The notes under the pieces: model-generated
Database searches by the model: none
Seen by the model: only the letters and a program-made list of their open reading frames with translations
Told to the model about the DNA's origin: nothing
In this document: positions 166 to 14,784 of the stretch, piece by piece
Position numbering within the stretch: the first letter of the stretch is position 1
How the letters are laid out: the number at the start of each line of letters is the position of its first letter
Source: Deltaproteobacteria bacterium
GTDB taxonomy: Bacteria > Myxococcota > Myxococcia > Myxococcales > 40CM-4-68-19
Reading direction: 5' to 3'
Length of the DNA: 42,199 bases
NCBI GenBank assembly: GCA_025358085.1
Contig: JANYKT010000168.1
Coordinates: 1 to 42,199, forward strand
Made by a program: the position numbers and the translations under genes

Positions 166-3100
166 CTAATGACGCTGCGTCCGGATGAGCAGGTATCCCC
201 GGCCGTCGGCGCCAAAGCCGCTTGCGCCTTTGACGCTGACCACCAATTCACCGCTGGGCAGCTCCCAATACACGTCGGTGCGGCAGTCATCCACGGTGCT
301 CGCCTCCTGGACATCCAGCAGCTTGGCCCAGTGCACGCCGTCGCCGCTTCCCCAGAGCGAGCCGGTGGTCACGCTCGAAGGCGTGACGTCCGCGCCCTGC
401 TCGCGCGTGGCGCCCACCACATATCCGCCCGACGAGACCGCATGAGTCGAATAGCTGGCTGAAGGCAGCGTGACGTAATCGGTGACGGTCTTGTCGAGAC
501 CGATCCGCGCGACGTGCGGCAGGTCGGGCTTGTAGCTGATGTCCTGGCCGGCCAGCAGCGAGCCGTCGGGGAGGATGGTCCCGTCCACGATATCGCCGGG
601 CTGCGCGGTGGCCATGGCGGTCCAGGTCCTGCCGGCGTCGGTCGAGCGATAGGTCCCGGACTGCGGATCGGTGTCGCCGAAGACCGCCCAGAGCGCGTGG
701 CGCGCGGGGTCGGCGATGAGGCCGTGGCCATGCCGGTGGGTGGTGAAGGTCTGGACCACGCTCCAGGTCTGGCCGTCGTCCACCGACTTCCATAGGTGAA
801 TCGGCGTCGCCCCTTCGGTGAACACCTGATACTCCGTGAAATACACCGCGCCGTCGAGCTCAGCATAGCTGTGCGGTGAAAGCGCGGAATAAACGCCGGT
901 CTGCAGCACGTCGCTCCAGGTGGAGCCGTGATCGGTCGAGCGCTCGAGGACGTGCTGGCCGCTGTTCATCGTGTCGGCCAGCAGCGTTCCCGTCGAGAGC
1001 GCGGTGATGACGTGGAAGTCCCAGCCATTGCCGCTGGTGCCGTCGAAGGTCCAGGAGCGGCCGTCGGTCGAGGAATAGAGGTGCGAATTGCTGTCGCCGA
1101 TTTGATTGCCATAGGCCGTGCCGAAGCGATCCACCGCCATCAGGTCGTAATCGGTGCCGAGATAAGTGACCTGCATCGAGAGCGCGGTGCCCGCGTCGGT
1201 GCCGGCATCGGTGCCGCCGTCAGACCCGCCCCCGGTGCCGCCGTCCGTGCCGCCGCCGCTCCCGCCACCCATGCCGCCGGTGTCGCTGAGCGAGAAGTTG
1301 CGGAACCAGATCCCGCTGATCCAGGCTGAGATGCCGCCGCTGCCCGCGCCCAGCACGTTGCTGGTGTCGGTCACGCTGAGCTTGACGTTGCCGTTGACTT
1401 TTGCGACCAACGAAACCGGGCCGCTGCCCGTGGCGGTGAGCGTCAGCGTGCTCCAGTTGCCGGTGTCGGCGATTCCGCTCGCCGCGTCGCCCAGCACCGT
1501 GATGACGCCGCCGCGGTGCTTGCGAATCTGCACATGATCGGTGTTCTGCAGAATCAGATCATATCGATTGTCCGGCGTGGACGCCTCGACGCGCAGGTCG
1601 ATGGCAACCGGGTCGCCGAAGCCGTCCACTTCCGCCTGCACGGTGCAGTCGCCGCAGGAGAGGCCCGAGACCATCGCCTGGTCCGGAGCATCGTTGTCGG
1701 AGTTGGCCCGGGTATCGTCAATGAAAGCTCCGGTGACCACGACCCAAGGCTCGCCGAGCGTCGAGGTGTTGCGATTGAAGGAGTCAGAGAAGGACACCGG
1801 ACCGCCCGTGCCGGCGTCGGGGGTCCCGGCGTCGGGGGTGCCGGCGTCAGGCGTGCCGGCGTCAGGCGTGCCGCCATCGGGCGTGCCGGCGTCAGGCGTG
1901 CCGGCGTCGGGCGTGCCGCCGTCGGGCGTACCGCCGTCGGGCGTGCCGGCGTCGGTCCCGCCCCCGCTCGTGCCCCCGCTCGTCCCGGTGACGACGAAGT
2001 TGCGGAACCAGATCCCGGCGAACGCCGTGGAGAAGCCCGCGCTGCCCGCGCCCAGGACATTGGCCGTATCGTTCCCGCCGAGCTTCACCACCCCATTGAC
2101 CTTCGCGACCAGCGAGACGGGGCCCGCGCCGCTGGCGGTCAACGTCAGCGTGCTCCAGTTGCCGGTATCGGCGATGCCGCTCGCACTATCGCCCAGCACG
2201 GTGATGACGGCGCCCCGGTGCTTGCGAATCTGCACGTGCCCCGTACTCTGCAGTACGAGGTCATATCGATCGTCCGGCGCGGAGGCCTGGACACGCAGAT
2301 CGATGCCGACCGGGTCGCCGAAGCCGTCCACCTCCGCCTGGACCGTGCAGTCCGCGCAGGAGAAGCTCTTCACCATCGCCTGGTCGGGAGCGTTGCGATC
2401 GGCGTTGGCGCGCGTGTCCTGGATGAAGGCGCCGTTGACCACCGTCCAGGTGGCGGGCAGCGTTGATGCGGTGCGATTGAAGGTATCGGAGAACAGCGTC
2501 CCGCCGCCGCCGCCGGCCGCGCCGCCAGCGGGCGGGCCCGCGTCCGGCGTTCCGGCATCGGGAGTCCCCGCGTCGGGAGTCCCCGCGTCGGGAGCGACGC
2601 CGCCGCCGGGGGTCGCGCCGAAGACCAGGTTCGCCGTGCCGCTGCTGTTCGCGTCCGGCGTATTTCCATAGAGGCAGGGCACGCGGGGCACGCCCACCGG
2701 CAGAACTTCGGCCGCCGCCGGATAGCCCTTGAAGCCCGAGGTGTCGTCGAGCGTGTTCGACGCGCCGAGCACATGATTGTGAATCATCAGGTATCGATAT
2801 CGATAGTCGGTGTTGGTCGAGACCGGATGGTTCCAGAACACCAGCACGTCATTGCCGATGCGCGAGGTCGCGGGCTGCGTCGCCCAGTCCTGCACGTCCT
2901 CGATGTCGGTGCGCCCGCCCCAGCCCGAGCCATTGAAGAAGCGATAAGCCAGCCGCTCATTGACATCCTTGTAGACGAGGTGCACGCCGCCGTTGCCGTC
3001 GCCCACCGCGCTGAGCGCGGCGCCGTGATAGATGCCCTCGGGAAAGACCTGCTGCGCCGAGCTCCAGGTGCCGACCGGGTCGCTGTCATTGCGCAGGCGC

Positions 3101-3786
3101 ATAAAGGCCGGGTCCACGCCGTGCGTGCTGTAGAGGAACATCAGCCGTGTGCCCAGGCTGAGGATGCGGCCGCCGGGGCGGTTCGCGAACGAGCCCAGCG
3201 TGGGCTGCATCGCGAAGGTCGCGCCGCCGTTGATCGAGACGGACATGCAGACGGTGAAGCTGCCGCCAGGCTCGATGCGCATCGCCTGGACCCAGATGCG
3301 GCTCTTTGAATCGATCGCGAGCTCGCCGCGCAGGTAACCATTGCTGCTGTCGCTCGCGGCCTGCATCACGGTGACCTTTGCGGAGGGGTTGAAGCCGCCG
3401 CTGCCGTCGTAGCGCCACCACTGGAAATAGACGCTGTGCAGCGCCGAGCCGGAGATGGTGGGGCCTTCATAGGAATAGACCAGCGCGATGTCGTTGCCGA
3501 CCGCCAGCAGGTCCACGCGATCGGTCTCGGAGGGATCGTCCTGGATGGGGGCGTAGTAGCTCCAGGTCTGCGCCTCGTCGTTGCTGCGATAGAAGCCCAG
3601 CGCGTGGCCGTCGGCGCCGCCCTGCTGAATCGCGGCCAGCCAGACTACCGGCCGGCCGCCGCCCGGGTCGATGCGGACCATGTGACGGCCCGCAGGCAGC
3701 GTCATGGCGCTGCCGTCCTTGATATTCGCGACCTGGATCGGCGCGGCCAACACCGCGGCTACGAGTGCAACCAGCATGCCCCACAT
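166..3786 (-). CDS. Large secreted modular protein with BNR-type propellers and a duplicated beta-sandwich domain
   Basis: The protein has 1,206 residues. Residues 1-17 look like a signal peptide. Residues 20-395 form an N-terminal propeller-like region with Asp-box-like motifs (SNDEAQTW near 68, SINGGATF near 184). A Pro-Asp-Ala-Gly linker (398-429) leads to a beta-sandwich domain (430-600), a second PDAGT/PDGGT linker (601-663), a near-duplicate of that domain (664-834), a Gly/Asp linker (835-868) and a C-terminal propeller (869-1206). The C-terminal propeller has four clear Asp boxes (SSTDGRSW, STDHGSTW, SVDDGQTW, STDAGRTW). BNR folds occur in sialidases and in non-enzymatic sorting or binding proteins; no sialidase catalytic Arg triad was identified. 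The sandwich domains resemble concanavalin/LamG-like glycan-binding modules, with a CxDC motif in each copy. Such Asp-Ala-Gly linkers are common in secreted Myxococcota proteins. No MYXO-CTERM tail is visible. The likely role is exported glycan binding or degradation, but the substrate is unknown. Confidence 0.85.
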   Translation of the reverse strand: MWGMLVALVAAVLAAPIQVANIKDGSAMTLPAGRHMVRIDPGGGRPVVWLAAIQQGGADGHALGFYRSNDEAQTWSYYAPIQDDPSETDRVDLLAVGNDIALVYSYEGPTISGSALHSVYFQWWRYDGSGGFNPSAKVTVMQAASDSSNGYLRGELAIDSKSRIWVQAMRIEPGGSFTVCMSVSINGGATFAMQPTLGSFANRPGGRILSLGTRLMFLYSTHGVDPAFMRLRNDSDPVGTWSSAQQVFPEGIYHGAALSAVGDGNGGVHLVYKDVNERLAYRFFNGSGWGGRTDIEDVQDWATQPATSRIGNDVLVFWNHPVSTNTDYRYRYLMIHNHVLGASNTLDDTSGFKGYPAAAEVLPVGVPRVPCLYGNTPDANSSGTANLVFGATPGGGVAPDAGTPDAGTPDAGTPDAGPPAGGAAGGGGGTLFSDTFNRTASTLPATWTVVNGAFIQDTRANADRNAPDQAMVKSFSCADCTVQAEVDGFGDPVGIDLRVQASAPDDRYDLVLQSTGHVQIRKHRGAVITVLGDSASGIADTGNWSTLTLTASGAGPVSLVAKVNGVVKLGGNDTANVLGAGSAGFSTAFAGIWFRNFVVTGTSGGTSGGGTDAGTPDGGTPDGGTPDAGTPDAGTPDGGTPDAGTPDAGTPDAGTPDAGTGGPVSFSDSFNRNTSTLGEPWVVVTGAFIDDTRANSDNDAPDQAMVSGLSCGDCTVQAEVDGFGDPVAIDLRVEASTPDNRYDLILQNTDHVQIRKHRGGVITVLGDAASGIADTGNWSTLTLTATGSGPVSLVAKVNGNVKLSVTDTSNVLGAGSGGISAWISGIWFRNFSLSDTGGMGGGSGGGTDGGTGGGSDGGTDAGTDAGTALSMQVTYLGTDYDLMAVDRFGTAYGNQIGDSNSHLYSSTDGRSWTFDGTSGNGWDFHVITALSTGTLLADTMNSGQHVLERSTDHGSTWSDVLQTGVYSALSPHSYAELDGAVYFTEYQVFTEGATPIHLWKSVDDGQTWSVVQTFTTHRHGHGLIADPARHALWAVFGDTDPQSGTYRSTDAGRTWTAMATAQPGDIVDGTILPDGSLLAGQDISYKPDLPHVARIGLDKTVTDYVTLPSASYSTHAVSSGGYVVGATREQGADVTPSSVTTGSLWGSGDGVHWAKLLDVQEASTVDDCRTDVYWELPSGELVVSVKGASGFGADGRGYLLIRTQRH
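1284..2499 (-). repeat. Tandemly duplicated domain-coding units with short-unit linker repeats
   Basis: Two about 513-bp units (1986-2499 and 1284-1797) encode near-identical beta-sandwich domains within the 166-3786 gene. Between them, 1797-1985 is built from 15-bp units encoding Thr-Pro-Asp-Ala/Gly-Gly. A shorter array of the same unit lies near 2535-2600. These look like recombination-prone coding repeats rather than an independent element. Confidence 0.8.
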
Positions 3787-4200: not shown

Positions 4201-4620
4201 CTAGCGAATCACCAAGACCGGCTTCGGCGAGATCTGCACCAGCCGATCGGCCACGCTGCCGACGAGGAGCCGCGAGGCCAGGTTTCGTCCGCGGTGGCCG
4301 ACCACGGCGAGGGTGACGTCCGCTGCCTCCGCTAGCTCAGCGAGCGTCTCGGCGGGTAAGCCGATCCTGAACACCGTACTCAACTCGACGCCGGTACCCT
4401 TGACGCGCTCGACCGCATCGCGGAGCAGCCCCTGTGCCAATTTCTCCTGAGCCTTGACCATGTCGGCGCCTGCCACCCAATCCCCGAGCGGAGATGCGAC
4501 GGGCACCGAGACGTGCGCGATCTGCAACCTTGCTTGGGTGGCGCGCGCGAGTTCCGCGGCCTTCGCCAGCGCTGACCAACTCTGTTCGGATCCATCGAGC
4601 CCGACGACGATTCGCTTCAC
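4201..4620 (-). CDS. Universal stress protein, UspA family
   Basis: The 139-residue protein is a single-domain UspA family member, a cytoplasmic ATP-binding stress protein. It starts KRIVVGLDGSEQS after the initiator, the usual first strand, and carries the ATP-binding signature G-2x-G-9x-G-S near the end (GHRG...GSVADRL), so it is probably the ATP-binding type. The start chosen is the GTG at 4620, preceded by a good Shine-Dalgarno (GGAGG, about 7 nt upstream). An upstream TTG would add seven residues with no benefit. It lies downstream of, and on the same strand as, the hemerythrin/kinase/APS-kinase operon, and a second Usp gene is at 7072. It is probably part of the same stress regulon; that is inference. 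Confidence 0.9.
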   Translation of the reverse strand: MKRIVVGLDGSEQSWSALAKAAELARATQARLQIAHVSVPVASPLGDWVAGADMVKAQEKLAQGLLRDAVERVKGTGVELSTVFRIGLPAETLAELAEAADVTLAVVGHRGRNLASRLLVGSVADRLVQISPKPVLVIR

Positions 4621-4647
4621 GATTTCCTCCGCCGCAATCAAACGTTT

Positions 4648-4894: not shown

Positions 4895-5428
4895 CTACCG
4901 CGGACCCGCGGGCGCCAAGTCGAGGCGCGAGAGGATCTCGTCGAGCGCGCCGGCATCCTCGCCTCCGCGCGCTACCACCTCGGGCGCCTTTGGCGGCTCG
5001 AACTTCGCGCCCGCCCCCGGCAGGTTGGGGAGCGTTCCTCGCGCGGCCAGCGCATAGAGGCCTTTTCTGTCGCGCCTGCGGCACTCCTCAGCGGGCACGT
5101 CGAGGAACACCTCGAGGAAGCGCGGCGAAAGCGCGCGCGCCCCGTCGCGATAGGCCCGACGGTGTCCGGTGGCCGCCACCAGCACGACGAGATCCTGCCG
5201 CGCGAGCAACGCCGCGAGGCCCGCTATCGTCGCGTAGAAGGAGTCGCGCTCCTCGGGTGTGTAGCCCGGCCTCGGCACGAGCGCGCCGCGGACCTCGTCA
5301 CCGTCGAGCACCACCGCCGAGCGGCTCGCCGCGCGAAGCCGTGCGACAAGATGCCTGGCGAGCGTCGACTTGCCCGACGACGGCAGCCCCGTCAGCCACA
5401 CCACGGCCCCGCTCATTGCGCCGCTCAT
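4895..5428 (-). CDS. Adenylylsulfate (APS) kinase-like protein
   Basis: The 177-residue P-loop kinase has Walker A GLPSSGKST near residue 13, then the APS-kinase DGDEVRGAL motif, and further on RRDRKGLYALA, the RDxKGLY signature of CysC. Known APS kinases phosphorylate adenosine 5'-phosphosulfate to PAPS. The canonical motif after DGDxVR (R-E-N-x-R-R) is replaced by EERDSFYATIAGLA, so the substrate could differ. The ATG at 5428 overlaps the TGA of the upstream kinase gene (ATGA, 5425-5428), which implies translational coupling. No sulfate-assimilation gene (cysD, cysN, cysH) lies nearby. This argues for a role tied to the adjoining APH-fold protein rather than to sulfate assimilation, an inference. 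Confidence 0.8.
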   Translation of the reverse strand: MSGAMSGAVVWLTGLPSSGKSTLARHLVARLRAASRSAVVLDGDEVRGALVPRPGYTPEERDSFYATIAGLAALLARQDLVVLVAATGHRRAYRDGARALSPRFLEVFLDVPAEECRRRDRKGLYALAARGTLPNLPGAGAKFEPPKAPEVVARGGEDAGALDEILSRLDLAPAGPR

Positions 5429-6516
5429 CGGAACAGATCCTCCGCGCACGAGGGGTCGAAGCGCGGCGAAAGAAGGGCCCGCTCGGCGAGCCCGAGAATT
5501 GCGTCGCGCGCCTCGGCGGGAAGGTTGGGATAGAAGCGCGGGCTCGAGACCACGAGGCACCGCCACGCGAGCCACGGCGCCGCCACCTCGAGGAGCGCGG
5601 GGTCGCCGCTCTCGCCCAGGTACACCTCCCAGAAGCGCCGCCACAGCCGCCCCAGCCCGCCCTTCCACGAGCCGCGCCGGTCGATAGCGAAGAAGACGAA
5701 GTTCACCGCCATGCTGGTCACGTCGTCGGCGGGGTCTCCCCTGCAGCCGCGGCTCGCGTCGAGCATCGTGAAGCGGGTGCCTTCGCCGTGCTCGAAGACG
5801 ATGTTGAAGGGGTGGAAGTCACCGTGCGTTCGGGCGAGCCGCGCGTCTCGTCCACGCAGCCGCCAGCGGAAGTCGAGGCAGCGCTCCTCGATGGAGCGCA
5901 GCCGCGCGGGCGGCGCGGCGGGCACGTCCGGGCCGTACCCATCCACCATGCCGAAGATTCCCTCGCCGTGGCCGAGCAGATCGCGCACCGCGCGCAGGTA
6001 GCCGGCGGGCTCGTCGATGCGCCGCGCGTGCAGGCGCAGGAGCCAGCGCGCGAGCGCCTCGCAGCGCGCGAGGTCGCCGTCAGTAGCCACGCCCTCGGCG
6101 GCGATGCGGCGCAGATGGTCCGCGTATATCTGCCCGTCCGCGAAGGTGGTGAGCAGGTAGAACTCGCCGCCCTCGCGCAGCGACAGGAGCCGCCCCTCGG
6201 GCAGGATGGCGCCCACGTCCAGCGCTTGCACGTGGTCAGGCACGTCCTTGAAGGTGTCGAACGAAAGCAGGATGCCGCCGGCGCGGTCGCTGCGCCGGTC
6301 GTGGCCGAACATGTTCGCGGTGGCGGTGCGAAAGACCAGCACGCGGGGCGTCCCTTGCGGTCCGCGCACTGTCACGCGCAGCGGTCGGCCGTAGCCCGTC
6401 ACCTTGTGCGTGTCGTCGCCGCCCGTGTCGGGCACGAGCGGCTCGATCGCCTCGACCGCCGAGCCGGGAAACAGCCGCTCCACCAGCTCGCCGACGTGCT
6501 GCTGAATCCTAGCCAT
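5425..6516 (-). CDS. APH-fold (aminoglycoside phosphotransferase-like) kinase
   Basis: The protein has 363 residues. It carries the Brenner-type catalytic motif HGDFHPFNIVF followed by LDASRGCRGDPADDV, equivalent to the catalytic loop and metal-binding Asp of the APH/choline-kinase/MTR-kinase superfamily. Its N-terminal lobe (about 1-120) is consistent with a kinase lobe. Such proteins phosphorylate small molecules; nothing here indicates antibiotic resistance. The ATG at 6516 is chosen because it overlaps the stop of the hemerythrin gene by 8 nt and is followed by plausible protein; the open frame further upstream is antisense-like Arg-rich sequence. It is coupled downstream to the APS-kinase-like gene. 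In some bacteria APH and P-loop kinase domains occur fused in one chain, so the two may act as partners (inference). Confidence 0.8.
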   Translation of the reverse strand: MARIQQHVGELVERLFPGSAVEAIEPLVPDTGGDDTHKVTGYGRPLRVTVRGPQGTPRVLVFRTATANMFGHDRRSDRAGGILLSFDTFKDVPDHVQALDVGAILPEGRLLSLREGGEFYLLTTFADGQIYADHLRRIAAEGVATDGDLARCEALARWLLRLHARRIDEPAGYLRAVRDLLGHGEGIFGMVDGYGPDVPAAPPARLRSIEERCLDFRWRLRGRDARLARTHGDFHPFNIVFEHGEGTRFTMLDASRGCRGDPADDVTSMAVNFVFFAIDRRGSWKGGLGRLWRRFWEVYLGESGDPALLEVAAPWLAWRCLVVSSPRFYPNLPAEARDAILGLAERALLSPRFDPSCAEDLFR

Positions 6517-6826
6517 GGTCGCTGTACCCCGCCGGCGCGCACGCCTCGCCGAGCCCTGGCGGCGAGGGAAGAAGCCTCCGCGCGTGCAGCGCGGCCGTCT
6601 CGTTTGGATTGACCCGCTCGAACAGCGGCAGGATGGAGCGCTCCTCGGTGTCGAGGTGCACGAGGACGCTTCTGTCGAATTCGGTCCACGTCGAACGCAT
6701 CTCGCGCTGGTGCCCGTCCGCGAACTCGCCGAGCAGCTCCTCGAAGAGCGCCTCGAGGCACGCGTGATCGCTGCGCAGGAGCTCCTGCGGATTCGGCACC
6801 CCCATCCCCTGCTCGTCGCCCTGCAC
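6509..6826 (-). CDS. Hemerythrin HHE domain protein
   Basis: The 105-residue protein is a single four-helix hemerythrin/HHE cation-binding domain. Candidate iron ligands are His in SDHACLEALFEE (near 24), the HLDTEE motif (HxxxE, near 57-61) and a later His in TAALHARRLL. The family binds a di-iron centre and is used for oxygen, NO or redox sensing, or for iron handling; it is cytoplasmic here, with no signal peptide. It is the first gene of the operon with the APH-fold kinase (8-nt overlap) and the APS-kinase-like protein, which suggests an oxygen- or redox-linked function for the unit. The last residues (GLGEACAPAGYSDHG) are not part of the domain. Confidence 0.75.
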   Translation of the reverse strand: MQGDEQGMGVPNPQELLRSDHACLEALFEELLGEFADGHQREMRSTWTEFDRSVLVHLDTEERSILPLFERVNPNETAALHARRLLPSPPGLGEACAPAGYSDHG

Positions 6827-7071
6827 GAGGCATCTCCTCTCCAGCTCTGACGAGAGCCTAGCGCCGCGCGCTGCCTTCGGCCGCCTTCAATGGCTCTTGG
6901 CGAATGCGTGCGGAGTGACGCCCCCGACGCGCAGAATCTTCGCTCCGGCGCACGGCCTGCGTCTCGAGGGGCGTGCCGGCAGCGCGGATTGGAGCAACCG
7001 ACGGGAGCAAAGCAGAACCTTGGCACCTCGCATGCAACGGCGGTACCTCGCCAAGAGAAAGTGAGTCTGAG
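6827..7071. other. Divergent intergenic region between the hemerythrin operon and the second Usp gene
   Basis: These 245 bp separate two divergent stress transcription units and must hold both promoters. I see no confident -35/-10 pair, operator palindrome or RNA gene by eye. Confidence 0.4.
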
Positions 7072-7614
7072 ATGACCGCCTTCAAGCACATTCTGGTTCC
7101 CACCGACTTTGGCGAGTCGTCGCGGCGAGCCCTCGACGTTGCGGTCGAGCTCTCGCAGAAGCTTGATGCGTCACTGACCCTGCTCCACACCTACGAAATC
7201 CCCACCTATGATAATTCGGGCATGGTCTTCGCGACCGTTGACCTCCTGACGCAGGTCGAGGAGTCCGCGCAGCAACAACTCGAGGAGGCGCTCGTCACCT
7301 TGCGGAAACGGCTGCCGGACGCGAAGGGGATCTTGCGTAACGGAGTTCCGTGGCAGCAGATCCTGGCGGCCATCGATGAAACCCACGCAGACCTCGTGGT
7401 CATGGGCACGCACGGCCGTCGCGGTGTGGCGCACGCTTTGCTCGGCAGCGTAGCCGAGAAAACCGTGCGCATGTCGCCGGTCCCGGTCCTCACCATCCGC
7501 GCGGCTGCGCACGACGGCCGAGACCACGCAAACGTAGTGAAGGCGGCTGATTCGAGCGGAGAGACTGCAACACCTCAGGCACTGGCCCGCCTGCCACACG
7601 AGTCAGCAAAGTAA
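7072..7614 (+). CDS. Universal stress protein, UspA family, with C-terminal extension
   Basis: The 180-residue protein starts TAFKHILVPTDFGES after the initiator Met, typical of UspA, and carries the ATP-binding signature G-2x-G-9x-G-S (GTHGRRGVAHALLGS) followed by VRMSPVPVLTI. About 35 polar residues after the domain have no recognised motif. The ATG at 7072 is chosen because homologues begin there; upstream in-frame sequence is not protein-like. The upstream sequence AGAGAAAG is only a weak ribosome-binding site. It is divergent from the hemerythrin operon and convergent with the AI-2E-type gene at 7762. Confidence 0.9.
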   Translation: MTAFKHILVPTDFGESSRRALDVAVELSQKLDASLTLLHTYEIPTYDNSGMVFATVDLLTQVEESAQQQLEEALVTLRKRLPDAKGILRNGVPWQQILAAIDETHADLVVMGTHGRRGVAHALLGSVAEKTVRMSPVPVLTIRAAAHDGRDHANVVKAADSSGETATPQALARLPHESAK

Positions 7615-8847: not shown

Positions 8848-9257
8848 GGAGCCGTTGTACCGGAATCCCGTTCACGAGGGGCGCCGGAGCCGCCCGAACG
8901 CGCGAGGGATCCAGGAGCCGAGCGCCACGAGCATCCGCCCCAAGATCGCCCGCGCTTCAGGTCGGCAAGCCGCGGCTTTTGCGCAGGCGCACCTCCGGCG
9001 CAAGGGCGAGTCAGAAGTCGATCCAGAACTCGAGCTGCCGGGCTGCGCCGTCGATCACCACCGCCGTCCGGTTGACGGGTTGAAGCAGAGTTTGCGAAGG
9101 CGCGCTTCATCGGCGCAGAAAATGCGCCCGCTCCCGATTACCCGGGCCATTCATGACTGCACGGCTCGAAGGTGGCCGCAGTGAGATGCAATCCATTGAG
9201 CGCCCCTGATCCACGCTGGCAAGGTCATTGCAGCAGAGGGACCCGTGGGTGATTCAG
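8848..9257. other. Intergenic region with a possible 3' gene scrap
   Basis: The region lies between the divergent AI-2E-type gene and the P-type ATPase operon. On the minus strand, about 9011-9100 reads TAVVIDGAARQLEFWIDF followed by a stop, which looks like the C-terminal end of a lost protein-coding gene of unknown family. Nothing else is recognisable. Promoters for both flanking units should lie here. Confidence 0.3.
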
Positions 9258-11873
9258 ATGACTGAAACGGTGACATTCTCGGCGGTGGAGAGGGCCCGGT
9301 CTTTCGCCGAAGACGCGCAGCCGCTTCAAGGGCTCTCAACGGGCGACGCAATCGCCAGGCTCGCGGCCGACGGACCCAACGAGCTGCCGCAGGAGCGCCG
9401 GCGCGGAGTCCTGAAGATCGCGCTGGAAGTCGTGCGCCAGCCGATGTTCCTCATGCTGGTCGCTGCAGGGTCCTTGTACCTGATGATCGGCGAGCCCACC
9501 GACGCGATGATGCTGCTCGGATTCGTCGTGGTCGTCATGGGCATTACCGTCGTGCAGGAGCGGCGGACCGAACGCGCGCTGGAGGCGCTCCGCGATCTCT
9601 CGAGCTCGCGTGCGCTGGTGATCCGCGACGGCGTGCAGCAGCGCATTGCGGGCCGCGAGGTCGTGCGCGGCGACTTGATCCTGCTCTCGGAAGGCGACCG
9701 AGTCCCCGCGGACGCACTGCTGCGGACGGACGGCAACCTTGCGGCGGACGAATCACTCCTGACCGGTGAGTCGGTTCCCGTTCGCAAGAGCGCATCCGCG
9801 ATCGCGTCGGCACTGGATCCGCCCGGCGGCGACGAACTACCGTCGCTCTTCTCCGGCACACTGGTCACCGCCGGCCAGGGCATGGCCGAAGTCGTCGCCA
9901 CCGGACCTCGCACCGAGCTGGGGAAGATCGGCAAGGCTCTGCAGACGCTGGAGCGCGAACCCACCCCGCTTCAGCAAGCGGCGGGCAAGCTGGTGCGGCT
10001 GATGGCCGTGGTCGGTCTCGGGCTCTCCGCGTTGGTGATTGTCGCCTACGCGCTGACCCGCGGCGGCAGCGGCGGCGCCTGGCGCGAGGGCGCCCAGGCC
10101 GGCATCGCGATGGCCATGGCGGTGCTGCCCGAGGAGTTCCCGGTCATCCTCACCATTTTCCTCGCCCTGGGCGCGTGGCGTATTTCGCACCGCCACGTGC
10201 TCACGCGGCGGATGCCGGCGGTGGAGACTCTCGGCGCCGTCACCGTGCTCTGCGTGGATAAGACCGGCACGCTCACCCTCAACCAGATGACGCTCGCGGC
10301 CATCGATCACGAGGGCACGTCTTTCGACGTGCGCAGCAGCGCGCCGGTGCCTTCACGCTTTCATCGCGTGCTCGAGGCTGCGGTTCTCTCCAGCCGCTCC
10401 GATCCGTTCGATCCAATGGAGCGGGCGCTCGTCGATGCTGGACGTCGCTTGTTGACCGGGGCGCAGGAGGAACGCGAGCTGATCCGCGAATATCCTCTCA
10501 CCCCACAGCTTCTCGCGGTGTCGCAGGCCTGGCGGACCAGCGCCGACAAGGCGCTGCTGGTGGCGGCCAAAGGCGCGCCCGAAGCGATCGCGACGCTGTG
10601 CCGTCTGACGGCTCCCGCTCGAGAAGAACTGGGGCGTCGCTCCGCCCAGTTCGCGGCGGAAGGGTTGCGCGTCTTGGGGGTGGCGGCGGCGCGCATCGAC
10701 GAGGAGAAGCTGCCCCGCGAGCAGGGGGAGCTGCACCTCGCGTTTCTCGGCCTGGTCGCGCTGGAGGACCCGGTGCGGCCAGCCGTGCCCGCAGCAGTTG
10801 CCGAATGCCGCAGCGCCGGCATCCGCGTGGTGATGATTACCGGGGACTATCCCGCCACCGCCCGCAGCATCGCTGCCCAGGCCGGCATCGCCGATCCCGG
10901 CGCGTTGATGACCGGCCCCGAGCTGAACGCGCTGAGCGAGGACGAGTTCGCCGCGCGCGTGCGAAGCGTGAACGTCTTCGCGCGGGTGGTGCCGAAGCAG
11001 AAGCTGCGCATCGTCGAGGCGCTCAAGCGCAGCGGCGAGATCGTCGGCATGACGGGCGACGGAGTCAACGACGCCCCGGCCCTGAAGGCGGCGCACATCG
11101 GCGTGGCCATGGGTGGACGGGGCACGGACGTGGCACGCGAGTCAGCGGCGCTGGTGCTCCTCGACGACGAGTTCCCTTCCATCGTGGCGGCGATCCGTCT
11201 GGGCCGGCGCATCTTCGACAACATCAAGAAGGCGTTCACCTACACCTTCGCGGTGCACGTGCCGATCGCGGGGCTGTCGGTGGCACCGCTGTTCGTGCCT
11301 GGCTGGCCTCTGCTGCTCCTGCCGGTGCACATCGTTTTCATGGAGCTGATCATCGATCCCGCCTGCTCGCTGGTCTTCGAGGCCGAGGAGGCGGAGCCCG
11401 ACGTGATGCGGCGTGCCCCCCGCGACCCCCGTGAGCAACTGTTCTCTCGCGCGGCCATGGGTTGGGGACTTCTCCAAGGCACCGGGGTGCTGGCCCTGGC
11501 CCTGGCCGCGTTCGTCGCAGTCACGCGAATGGGCGAACCCACGCCCGCTGCGCGCGCCGTGGCGTTCACGGCGATCGTGCTCGGGAACCTGTTCCTGATT
11601 CTCGGCAACCGCTCGCGGACCCGCAGCACGCTCTCGATGCTGCGAGAGCCAAATGCGACGCTCTGGTGGGTGGTCGGCGGCGCCGCGGTCTTTCTGGCGC
11701 TGGCGCTGTTCGTTCCCCTCTTCCGCGGGATCTTCCACTTCGGCGCGCCCTCGGCGGCAGCGTTGACCTTGGGCATCGTTGCCGGGCTTGCGACGCTGCC
11801 TTGGGTCGAGGTGCTGAGGCTGTTGCGCAACCGGGCTCCACGCGCGGACAGAGCTTTGCCGGGAACCGCATGA
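9258..11873 (+). CDS. P-type cation-transporting ATPase (P2-like)
   Basis: The product has 871 residues from the ATG at 9258. An N-terminal cation-ATPase domain (LQGLSTGDAIARLAADGPNELP) is followed by membrane helices. The actuator motif is LTGES, the phosphorylation motif DKTGTLT (Asp334), the hinge motif TGDGVNDAPALK (about 599) and the end is a helical C-terminus. The fourth membrane helix has PEEFPVIL where Ca2+ pumps have PEGLP, placing it in a bacterial P2-like group of unassigned ion specificity. An upstream TTG (9228) would add ten residues and is less likely. The TGA overlaps the next ATG (11870-11873), so the AI-2E-type gene is translationally coupled. The setting with Usp and FtsH genes suggests ion homeostasis under stress. 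Confidence 0.92.
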   Translation: MTETVTFSAVERARSFAEDAQPLQGLSTGDAIARLAADGPNELPQERRRGVLKIALEVVRQPMFLMLVAAGSLYLMIGEPTDAMMLLGFVVVVMGITVVQERRTERALEALRDLSSSRALVIRDGVQQRIAGREVVRGDLILLSEGDRVPADALLRTDGNLAADESLLTGESVPVRKSASAIASALDPPGGDELPSLFSGTLVTAGQGMAEVVATGPRTELGKIGKALQTLEREPTPLQQAAGKLVRLMAVVGLGLSALVIVAYALTRGGSGGAWREGAQAGIAMAMAVLPEEFPVILTIFLALGAWRISHRHVLTRRMPAVETLGAVTVLCVDKTGTLTLNQMTLAAIDHEGTSFDVRSSAPVPSRFHRVLEAAVLSSRSDPFDPMERALVDAGRRLLTGAQEERELIREYPLTPQLLAVSQAWRTSADKALLVAAKGAPEAIATLCRLTAPAREELGRRSAQFAAEGLRVLGVAAARIDEEKLPREQGELHLAFLGLVALEDPVRPAVPAAVAECRSAGIRVVMITGDYPATARSIAAQAGIADPGALMTGPELNALSEDEFAARVRSVNVFARVVPKQKLRIVEALKRSGEIVGMTGDGVNDAPALKAAHIGVAMGGRGTDVARESAALVLLDDEFPSIVAAIRLGRRIFDNIKKAFTYTFAVHVPIAGLSVAPLFVPGWPLLLLPVHIVFMELIIDPACSLVFEAEEAEPDVMRRAPRDPREQLFSRAAMGWGLLQGTGVLALALAAFVAVTRMGEPTPAARAVAFTAIVLGNLFLILGNRSRTRSTLSMLREPNATLWWVVGGAAVFLALALFVPLFRGIFHFGAPSAAALTLGIVAGLATLPWVEVLRLLRNRAPRADRALPGTA

Positions 11874-12943
11874 AGGAGATGGCCATCCCCGCGGACCCGT
11901 CGCCCGTGCCCCTGGATCGGCGACCGATCAAGGTCGTAGCCCTGTTGCTGCTCCTCTCGCTGTTCTGGGTGCTGAGTCCCGTGCTGGTTGCCATGGTCGC
12001 GGGAGGGTTCGCCGTCCTCGTCGCGCAGCGTCCATTCGAGCGGTTCGTGCTGGCGCTGCGGGGCCGCCGCCTGCTTGCAGCCGCGCTCGCGACGGCGGGA
12101 GTGGCTCTGGTCGTCCTCCTTCCGCTCACGGCGGCGGCCTTGGCCGGATGGGCGCAGGCCGCCGATGCAGCGCGCTGGCTCGTCGGGAAGCTCGGGCCAT
12201 CGGGAGGATTGCGCGCGTCGCTGGAGAAGATGCCCGGGTTCATCCGCGACGCGCTGCCCGGATTGCTCGAGAGCGCCCGGGCCGCCTTGGTGGACTCCGC
12301 CGCGCGCGCCGCGGCTCTGGTTCCACGCGCCGCCGCGTCGGTGGGACGCATGCTGGTCGGAGTGTTGCTTTCGCTGGTGACTGTCTTCTACCTCTTCCTG
12401 CAGGGGCCGGCGCTGGTGGCGTTCCTGCTGCGCGTCAGCCCGCTGCAGCAGCCACAGACATCAGCCCTGCTGCGCGAGGTTCGCGCGGTTGCGCTGGGAC
12501 TGTTCCGGGGGGGAGTCCTCGCGGCGCTCTACCACGGGACGGGTGCTGCGATCGGATTCGCGATCTTCGGGTTGCCGCACGTGCTCTTGCTGGGGCTTCT
12601 CACGGCGGCGGCCTCCCTCGTCCCACTGGTGGGCACCGGCCTCGTCTGCGTTCCGCTGGTCGTGGGGCTCGCGCTGTCGGGAGCGGTGGGAAAGGCCATC
12701 GGTCTCGGAATCTATTCTGTCCTCGTCGTCGGCTTTGGCGATCAGCTGCTGCGCCCGATGTGGTCGAAAGGCGCGATGGCCCTGCCGCGCCTGCTGCTCT
12801 TCCTCACCATCTTCGGCGGTCTTCAGATCTTCGGGCCCATCGGGCTGCTGCTGGGTCCCCTCGCGGGGAGCCTCGCGGTGGTGGCACTTGAATTGGTGGC
12901 CGAGCCGCTTCCGGCTGTTAGCCTGCCGTCAAGATGGCCATGA
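11870..12943 (+). CDS. AI-2E family (PerM/UPF0118) membrane protein, second copy
   Basis: The 357-residue polytopic protein has an N-terminal hydrophobic pair (about 20-55), another helix near 65-90, a soluble segment (about 95-150) and a C-terminal membrane block with [18 protein letters not shown] and [19 protein letters not shown], a recognisable family ending. It differs clearly from the copy at 7762-8847, so the two are not a recent duplication. The ATG at 11870 overlaps the ATPase stop by 4 nt. Its own stop (12941-12943) overlaps the FtsH start region, which puts it in the middle of a three-gene coupled unit. The transported substrate is unknown. Confidence 0.88.
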
Positions 12944-14784
12944 ACAAAAAACAGACCGGTTTCAACCTTGGGTACGTGCTGCTGGCCGTAATGGGCGTGT
13001 TGCTCCTGCAGGACTTCTGGATGCGCCGGCAGGCGGTCGCGACCATCCCGTACAGCGAGTTCCAGAAGCTGGTCAGCGAGGACAAGATCGCGAACGTCGT
13101 CGTTGGCCAGGACCAGCTCTCCGGCGAGTTCAAGCAAGCGATCGGCGGCAAGAAGCGGTTCGTCGCCGTCCGCGTCGCCGCCGACATCGCGAAGGAGCTC
13201 GACCAGCACGCCGTCGAGTACCGTGGCCAGTTCGAATCCAATTTCGTCTCGCTTCTCCTCTCCTGGATCGTGCCGATCGCGATCTTCGGCGGCATCTGGA
13301 TGTTTCTCGGCCGCCGCATGGCGAAGCAGCTCGGTGGGCCGGGCGGCGGGCTGATGGCGATCGGCAAGTCCAAGGCGAAGGTGTACGTCGAGACCGACAC
13401 CAAGGTGACGTTCGCCGACGTGGCGGGCGTGGACGAGGCCAAGGCCGAGCTGCAGGAGGTGGTCGCTTTCCTCAAGGATCCGAAGCAGCACGGCCGGCTC
13501 GGTGCGCGCATGCCGAAGGGCGTCCTCCTGGTCGGCCCTCCCGGCACCGGCAAGACGCTGCTGGCCAAGGCGGTCGCGGGCGAAGCCGCGGTGCCGTTCT
13601 TCTCCATCTCCGGGTCGGAGTTCGTGGAAATGTTCGTCGGCGTCGGCGCCGCCCGGGTGCGCGACCTGTTCGAGCAGGCCCGCGCGAAGGCGCCCTGCAT
13701 CGTCTTCATCGACGAGCTGGACGCGCTTGGCCGCGCCCGGGGCACCATGCCCGGATTTGGCGGTCACGACGAGAAGGAGCAGACACTGAACCAGCTTCTG
13801 GTCGAGATGGACGGGTTTGATCCGGCCTCCGGGATCGTCCTCCTGGCCGCCACCAACCGGCCCGAGATCCTCGATCCGGCGCTGCTGCGGGCCGGCCGCT
13901 TCGACCGGCAGGTTCTGGTCGATCGCCCCGACCGCATCGGACGCGATCAGATCCTGAAAGTCCACACGCGCCTGGTGACGCTGGGAACGGACGTCAAGCT
14001 CGAGGACGTCGCCGCGCTCACGCCGGGCTTCACGGGCGCGGACCTCGCGAACCTCGTCAACGAGGCAGCGCTGGTCGCGACCCGACGCGACGGCGATCAG
14101 ATCGTCATGAACGACTTCAACCTGGCCATCGAGCGGATTGTCGCCGGGTTGGAGAAGAAGAACCGGCTCCTCAATCCACGCGAACGGGAGATCGTAGCGC
14201 ACCACGAGATGGGGCACGCCTTCGTCGCGGCCGCGCTTCCCGGCACCGACACGGTCCACAAGATCTCCATCATCCCGCGCGGCATCGGCGCGCTGGGGTA
14301 CACCATCCAGCGCCCGACCGAGGACCGCTACCTCATGACCCTCAACGAGTTGGAGAACAAGATGGCGGTCCTGCTCGGTGGGCGCGCCGCGGAGCACCTC
14401 GTCTTCGGCCACCTCTCCACCGGCGCCGCCGACGATCTCTCCAAGGCGACCGACATCGCGCGCAGCATGGTAACCCGCTTCGGCATGGACGACATGCTCG
14501 GTCCGGTGACGTACGAGACCGAGCCCAATGCTTTCATGGGCCAGGCGTACGGCTCGAACCGGCTTTACGCCGAGGAGACTGCGCGGGAGATCGACGTCGC
14601 GGTGCGCGGCATGGTCGAGGCGCAGTTTCAGCGCGCACGCGCGATCCTGGCGGCGAACCGCCCGCTTCTCGAGGGCGCCGCCGGGACGCTGCTCGCGAAC
14701 GAGACGCTCGCGGGAGCACAGCTCGAGGGCATCCTGAAAGGCGTCGGCCAAAAGCCAGCGGCGCGCATCGCAGGAAGTGCGTAG
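12934..14784 (+). CDS. ftsH: ATP-dependent zinc metalloprotease FtsH
   Basis: The 616-residue protein has a first membrane helix at about 11-28, a periplasmic region at 32-103, and a second helix at 104-126. The AAA domain has Walker A GPPGTGKT (201-208), pore loop MFVGVGAAR, Walker [12 protein letters not shown] and the second region of homology [21 protein letters not shown]. The M41 protease domain has HEMGH (424-428) and the third zinc-ligand region STGAADDL (near 500). FtsH degrades unassembled membrane proteins and regulators. Starts at 12934 or 12940 are both possible; the second forms an ATGA overlap with the preceding stop. Co-transcription with a P-type ATPase and an AI-2E-type protein suggests an accessory stress FtsH rather than the housekeeping copy. 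Confidence 0.95.

Follow-up and report, generated by a model that had tools for sequence, protein, structure and literature searches.

A conserved gene pair of an APH-fold kinase and an APS-kinase-like protein, and its possible place in bacterial stress islands

The closest described systems share either the domain pairing or the gene company of the locus analyzed here. We take the COG2187 part of Rv2004c, a protein of the Mycobacterium tuberculosis DosR regulon, to be an APH-type domain. Rv2004c has been described as similar to COG2187 and weakly similar to gluconate kinase (PMC1950094). Judged by description, an APH-type domain is tied to a P-loop kinase both there and in our loci (neighboring genes or one fused protein in 79 of 82). 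In addition, the hypoxia regulon to which Rv2004c belongs contains many universal stress protein (Usp) genes, and Usp genes also flank the pair reported below. The P-loop part of Rv2004c is gluconate-kinase-like, whereas here this kinase belongs to the APS kinase family and the two genes are usually separate. By this comparison of descriptions, Rv2004c is the nearest analogue in print and the pair may work like it.

Relatives of APS kinase that serve other pathways also offer a parallel. Cj1415 of Campylobacter jejuni is a cytidine diphosphoramidate kinase, a relative of APS kinase whose nucleotide-like acceptor is not APS; it functions in a capsule pathway and is not known to have an APH partner. 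We liken it to the APS-kinase-like protein of the pair by description, not by sequence. With regard to gene company, the OsdR regulon of Streptomyces includes Usp, pyruvate phosphate dikinase (PPDK), zinc alcohol dehydrogenase and hemerythrin, as given in Table 1 of the source (PMC5069765), and kinase-pair loci appear to keep similar company. The likeness to OsdR/DosR-type islands is one of gene content only: Usp and hemerythrin genes are present in our locus, and its relative G010 also has a PPDK-like gene (assigned by eye).

The window, i.e., the whole stretch of 42,199 nt that was analyzed (contig JANYKT010000168.1 of a 5.42 Mb Myxococcales genome), contains a three-gene operon on the reverse strand. 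It encodes a truncated hemerythrin-like protein P0003 (6509-6826, GTG start, 105 aa), an APH-fold kinase P0002 (5425-6516, ATG start, 363 aa) and an APS-kinase-like P-loop kinase P0001 (4895-5428, ATG start, 177 aa), with overlaps of 8 nt between the hemerythrin-like and APH genes (6509-6516) and 4 nt between the two kinase genes (5425-5428). An earlier note on this DNA had given these gene types, coordinates and overlaps correctly, as judged by ORF calls and, for the two kinases, by Pfam. One Usp gene lies on each side of the operon: 3′ of it on the same strand (4201-4641, -) and divergent from it (7072-7614, +). A P-type cation ATPase (9228-11873, +) and an FtsH-like AAA protease (12934-14784, +; assigned by eye from the ORF sequence) complete the context. 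Elsewhere in the window (166-3786, -), an ORF encodes a protein of 1206 aa whose linker repeats are of the DAGTPDAGTPDGG type. A site at 7021-7035 (+), 5′ of the divergent Usp gene, resembles what we take to be the sigma-54 consensus; it was set aside as evidence. One-mismatch sites of this kind number 7 in the window versus 2.85 expected, and 3 of 100 shuffles were as high.

Conservation of the unit extends to the two kinase genes only, and hemerythrin lies outside it. An APH alignment was scanned against 84,980 species genomes and yielded 146 relatives; the best 80 of these, mainly from Myxococcota with some from Nitrospirota and other groups, were used. These loci (L035-L114), the window and L030 form a set of 82, gathered via the APH partner only; this route and the choice of the best 80 of 146 favor close relatives. 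In this set, the second kinase was adjacent or fused to APH in 79 loci. It was a called gene downstream of APH in 68 loci, within 30 nt in 63 of these and with a 4-nt overlap in 49. It lay 5′ of APH in four loci, in reversed order, was fused with APH into one protein in three (L082, L083 and L096), and was recovered by six-frame search in four more, one of them cut by a contig end. Neither gene calls nor six-frame searches of the 82 loci detected a second kinase in L098, L099 or L107. This recurrence is not due to chance: APH and the second kinase travel together between bacteria. Among 60 relatives, 15 had APH, all with the second kinase beside it; in Myxococcota, APH was patchily distributed, occurring in 35 of 195 genomes. 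Values of dN/dS between the window and G010 were below 1 for the second kinase (0.36), APH (0.16-0.22) and hemerythrin (0.41).

The earlier note had read the operon as a coupled set of an oxygen/NO-type di-iron protein and two kinases acting on small molecules. Its interpretation stands in part, for the coupling of the kinases and not for hemerythrin as a constant member. The pairing in 79 of 82 loci supports two coupled kinases of small-molecule type, and fused APH/P-loop homologues, which it had proposed to look for, occur in three loci; random variation of neighbors, which it had named as a sign against the idea, was seen for hemerythrin and not for the kinase pair. No published description of the APH and APS-kinase-like pair was found in the open-licence PMC literature. 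A fused protein of the COG2187-COG0645 type was also sought in the window's genome and none was found (PF13671; 7 of 12 matches inspected by eye). A PADLOC search gave weak matches for the second kinase only (mad8, 17.2 bits; Csx3, 13.6) and none for APH or the hemerythrin-like protein.

Hemerythrin is a rare passenger. P0003 scored 22.4 bits against Pfam Hemerythrin, below the cut-off of 25.3, whereas the hemerythrin of G010, the nearest relative (L032:434-931, 165 aa), scored 63.4 bits. The first half and the tail of the two proteins align, and about 60 aa containing helices 3-4 are absent from P0003 with the frame kept, leaving an incomplete four-helix bundle; either a deletion or an assembly artefact could explain the missing segment. 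A hemerythrin gene immediately 5′ of the two kinase genes was observed only in the window and G010, with an 8-nt overlap in both, and among the 15 APH-holding relatives (of 60), hemerythrin was found by sequence only in G010. Elsewhere, it directly follows the pair in L038 and is found among the flanking genes of L062, L066 and L074. In searches of the best 80 of 146 loci, P0003 as seed matched none, the full-length G010 hemerythrin matched one (and one of 40 controls), and the L038 hemerythrin matched three. Hemerythrin was therefore rejected as a core partner: almost no locus has it beside the pair, and the window's protein has lost helices 3-4.

P0001 is a member of the APS kinase family, with 125.5 bits against Pfam APS_kinase PF01583 (cut-off 21.1). 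Against NCBIfam TIGR00455, the adenylyl-sulfate kinase equivalog, it scored 121.8 bits, below the cut-off of 138.7. Its predicted model (mean pLDDT 94.8) matched APS kinase 5cb8 with Z 25.0 (rmsd 1.8, 170 residues aligned) and was far closer to APS kinases than to seryl-tRNA kinase (Z 15.5) or gluconate kinase (Z 15.2). The APS-kinase-like proteins of Myxococcota genomes fall into at least three kinds: class I is the canonical APS kinase, class III is the APH-linked form, and class II is described at the end of this report. Class III is one clade, set apart by a branch with support 100/99 (66 rows). Of the 71 second-kinase rows, 66 entered the structure alignment, and the class counts exclude two odd APS kinases (L128 and L150).

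Functional residues of M. tuberculosis CysC, including the adenine sandwich of F492 and F576, were taken as a reference from PMC4373884 and mapped to class III by a constant offset. Along with the fold, class III retains the P-loop, the catalytic Asp, the two phosphosulfate Arg and the catalytic Lys of CysC: K20 (P-loop), D44, R47, R61 and the ATP-stacking R119 are present in all 66 sequences and K122 in 64. P0001 itself has the P-loop GLPSSGKS, catalytic D44, anion-binding R47 and R61, and K122. Class III differs from CysC in that the second sandwich Phe and the NIRR and ISPY motifs are replaced. At the second position of the adenine sandwich, 23 of 23 class I proteins have Phe and 63 of 66 class III proteins have Leu or Val (51 Leu, 12 Val, 2 Phe, 1 Ala); P0001 has Y56 and L136 in place of the two Phe. 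The Asn that follows the second Arg in class I is Phe in 60 of 66, followed by Tyr in 66 of 66, and the I-S-P-Y of class I becomes T-A-x-R/K (T in 66, A in 62 and R/K in 59 of 66). The corresponding acceptor-pocket changes in P0001 are F64-Y65, T87, R90-R91 and L136-P137. The departure from the usual motif after DGDxVR, noticed earlier in this one protein, is thus real and family-wide, and comparison of its pocket with that of CysC reveals an altered adenine pocket with the phosphosulfate arginines kept.

A further difference from CysC lies in the host genome. The window's genome (98.11% complete) gave no match to ATP sulfurylase PF01747 or to the CysD/CysH family PF01507, and the PF01507 search had matches in all 14 control genomes; it follows that the genome has no ordinary source of APS. 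The earlier statement that sulfate-assimilation genes are lacking holds nearby and, genome-wide, for these two families, leaving CysN, sulfite reductase and sulfate transporters aside. The altered adenine pocket and the absence of both families make APS an unlikely substrate of class III and an anionic, diphosphate-like acceptor plausible. That the class III protein is a CysC is very improbable; the earlier suggestion that it does not use APS gains support, at the level of sequence, from the clade, the pocket residues and the missing PF01747 and PF01507 matches. Class III proteins are likely annotated as "adenylyl-sulfate kinase", and this label is probably wrong.

For P0002, Pfam APH PF01636 gave 33.2 bits (cut-off 23.2), and no NCBIfam match was found. 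The predicted model (confidence 92.7) is a full-length APH-fold kinase that matched APH-fold enzymes with Z 17-24. The best match, methylthioribose kinase, shares the fold over nearly the whole protein (Z up to 23.7, 10% identity), followed by PsiK, Rv3168, steroid kinases and glucosamine kinases; corramycin phosphotransferase and aminoglycoside kinases were also among the matches. Judging from the model, the APH fold is silent on the substrate of P0002. In the structure alignment of the family (71 of 75 rows used), the catalytic HxDxxxxN and metal Asp are conserved, with H231, G232, D233, H235, P236, D264, D265 and K38 in 71 of 71 and N238 and D253 in 70; P0002 has HGDFHPFN, D253 and D264-D265. 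Unlike APH-fold metabolic kinases, the family lacks the beta-3 lysine. This position, read from the predicted beta-3 strand of the P0002 model, is R63 in P0002, and His (37), Arg (27) or Glu (7) in the 71 proteins, Lys in none; the APH protein could therefore be a poor or non-catalytic kinase. The family instead has an invariant K38-xx-GYG and a conserved RxxRD-G-GEG motif. K38 lies in a loop before beta-2, beside GYG, where model confidence is low, and on the model it is possibly a relocated ATP lysine. A relocated lysine is known in WNK kinases.

Gene neighborhoods of the best 80 of 146 loci were compared with control windows, 40 from eight same-order genomes and 20 from six genomes behind the loci, at positions picked by hand at roughly even steps rather than at random. 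In six-frame searches, Usp was found in 24 of 80 loci versus 0 of 40 and 0 of 20 controls, and CBS in 24 of 80 versus 2 of 40 and 3 of 20. After deduplication, which dropped five loci (L046, L048, L050, L052 and L054), the counts were 23 of 75 versus 0 of 60 for Usp (p 2.5e-7) and 20 of 75 versus 5 of 60 for CBS (p 0.007), both p values being optimistic because the loci are related by descent. Flanking genes of 80-900 aa were also scanned with Pfam, omitting L035, eight loci judged to be near copies (L042, L046, L048, L050, L052, L054, L066 and L112) and L107, which had no called gene. Among nearest called neighbors, Usp accounted for 9 of 134 and CBS for 8 of 134; at the next position, Usp accounted for 8, response regulators for 7 and CBS for 6 of 114. 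In the control gene scan (130 of 150 listed genes used), Usp and CBS were outside the 25 families listed, so that each occurs in at most 2 of 130 genes.

Sensor kinases with protoglobin, HisKA and HATPase domains were detected in 6 of the best 80 of 146 loci versus 0 of 60 controls. In three Sorangium loci (L039, L040 and L042), a protoglobin-PAS-HisKA-HATPase gene directly follows the pair on the same strand, and in L040 it overlaps the second kinase by 4 nt. Ribosome-hibernation-type proteins occurred in 4 of these 80 loci. Overall, at least one scanned stress marker was present in 40 of the 80 loci versus 3 of 40 and 3 of 20 controls; since the other 40 had none, the island link is not general. 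Oxygen-binding proteins alone were not significantly enriched (9 of 75 versus 1 of 40, p = 0.16). The link to oxygen or redox state made in the earlier note is thus retained for the genomic islands, where Usp and CBS are enriched and protoglobin kinases and a few hemerythrins occur, and not for oxygen binders alone. A relative of the P-type ATPase was found in 7 of the best 80 loci versus 0 of 60 controls, FtsH in 2 of 80 versus 1 of 40, AI-2E in none of 80 and PPDK in 1 of 80; on these low counts, all four were rejected as constant neighbors. In Nitrospirota loci L105, L108, L112 and L113, the gene before the pair is ThiI/NFACT-R-like (by Pfam for L108, by clustering for the others). In L116, on contig C167 of the window's genome, an XRE-type regulator appears by eye to be fused to a shikimate-kinase-like domain.

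We propose, with a probability of roughly 0.55, that the two kinases of the pair act as a relay on an anionic metabolite, in islands of oxygen/energy-stress genes. Overlapping genes, or one fused protein in some species, would ensure that the APH-fold kinase and the repurposed APS-kinase-fold kinase are made together. The APH enzyme would phosphorylate a small metabolite, and the APS-kinase-like enzyme would add a second phosphate to the already anionic, diphosphate-like product, a role suggested by the retained R47/R61 clamp and by R90/R91 gained on the acceptor side. That both reactions occur on one molecule, and in this order, is a guess. Production or removal of the phosphorylated metabolite may accompany a shortage of oxygen or energy, as the pair is found among stress genes and sometimes beside a globin-coupled histidine kinase. 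A wider reading is possible, though doubtful as a whole: this clade would have left sulfate metabolism and, together with an APH carrying the relocated K38, would make an undescribed, multiply phosphorylated stress metabolite, perhaps a 3′-phosphorylated nucleoside-diphosphate-like compound, in the oxygen/energy-stress response of Myxococcota and Nitrospirota and likewise, via Rv2004c-like proteins, in the DosR response. A conserved two-kinase unit linked to Usp and sometimes to oxygen sensors would be a tractable environmental model for Rv2004c and points to such a metabolite.

Other readings of the same genes were weighed against the relay. If the second gene were an ordinary CysC making PAPS, its pairing with APH would be incidental. 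The Pfam score, the APS kinases as best structural matches and the retained catalytic residues and phosphosulfate-binding arginines agree with this, but the TIGR00455 score, the adenine-sandwich Phe replaced in most members and the presence of a strong canonical APS kinase in addition to the class III protein in G033, G035 and G043 do not. A true CysC was rejected on the separate clade, the pocket residues and the absent ATP sulfurylase and CysD/CysH matches, and we regard this reading as very unlikely. An operon in which the di-iron protein senses O2 or NO and controls the kinases would fit the 8-nt overlap in the window and G010, and the hemerythrin genes directly downstream of the pair in L038 and a few genes away in L062 and L066. 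However, the rarity of hemerythrin beside the pair, the truncated P0003 with its score below the Pfam cut-off and the lack of significant enrichment of oxygen binders as a class make such gating highly improbable.

The APH protein itself invites two further interpretations. The fold, the corramycin and aminoglycoside kinases among its structural matches and the patchy distribution in Myxococcota are what might be expected if, in the manner of classical APH enzymes, the pair detoxified an antibiotic or another foreign compound. We consider this quite unlikely: conservation is high across several phyla, the neighbors of the pair are often stress genes, metabolic kinases such as methylthioribose kinase match equally high, and no match was found among 72,556 plasmid records, on which drug resistance carried by mobile elements was rejected. 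Alternatively, APH could be a nucleotide-sensing pseudokinase or regulatory scaffold by which the P-loop kinase is controlled, as the replaced beta-3 lysine in 71 of 71 proteins would allow; the full catalytic set (D233, N238, D253 and others, in 70-71 of 71) and the alternative invariant lysine K38 argue for catalysis, and make a scaffold unlikely. The two-kinase relay remains the reading we prefer.

Class II is represented in the window's genome by a protein encoded on contig C121 (L034:8050-9054, +), in which LDGP replaces LDGD and the phosphosulfate arginine is absent. By eye, its neighbors in L034 are ThiF, a ThiS/MoaD-type sulfur carrier, cysteine synthase, a JAMM protease and an ATP pyrophosphatase. 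A class similar to class II was found again in other Myxococcota.
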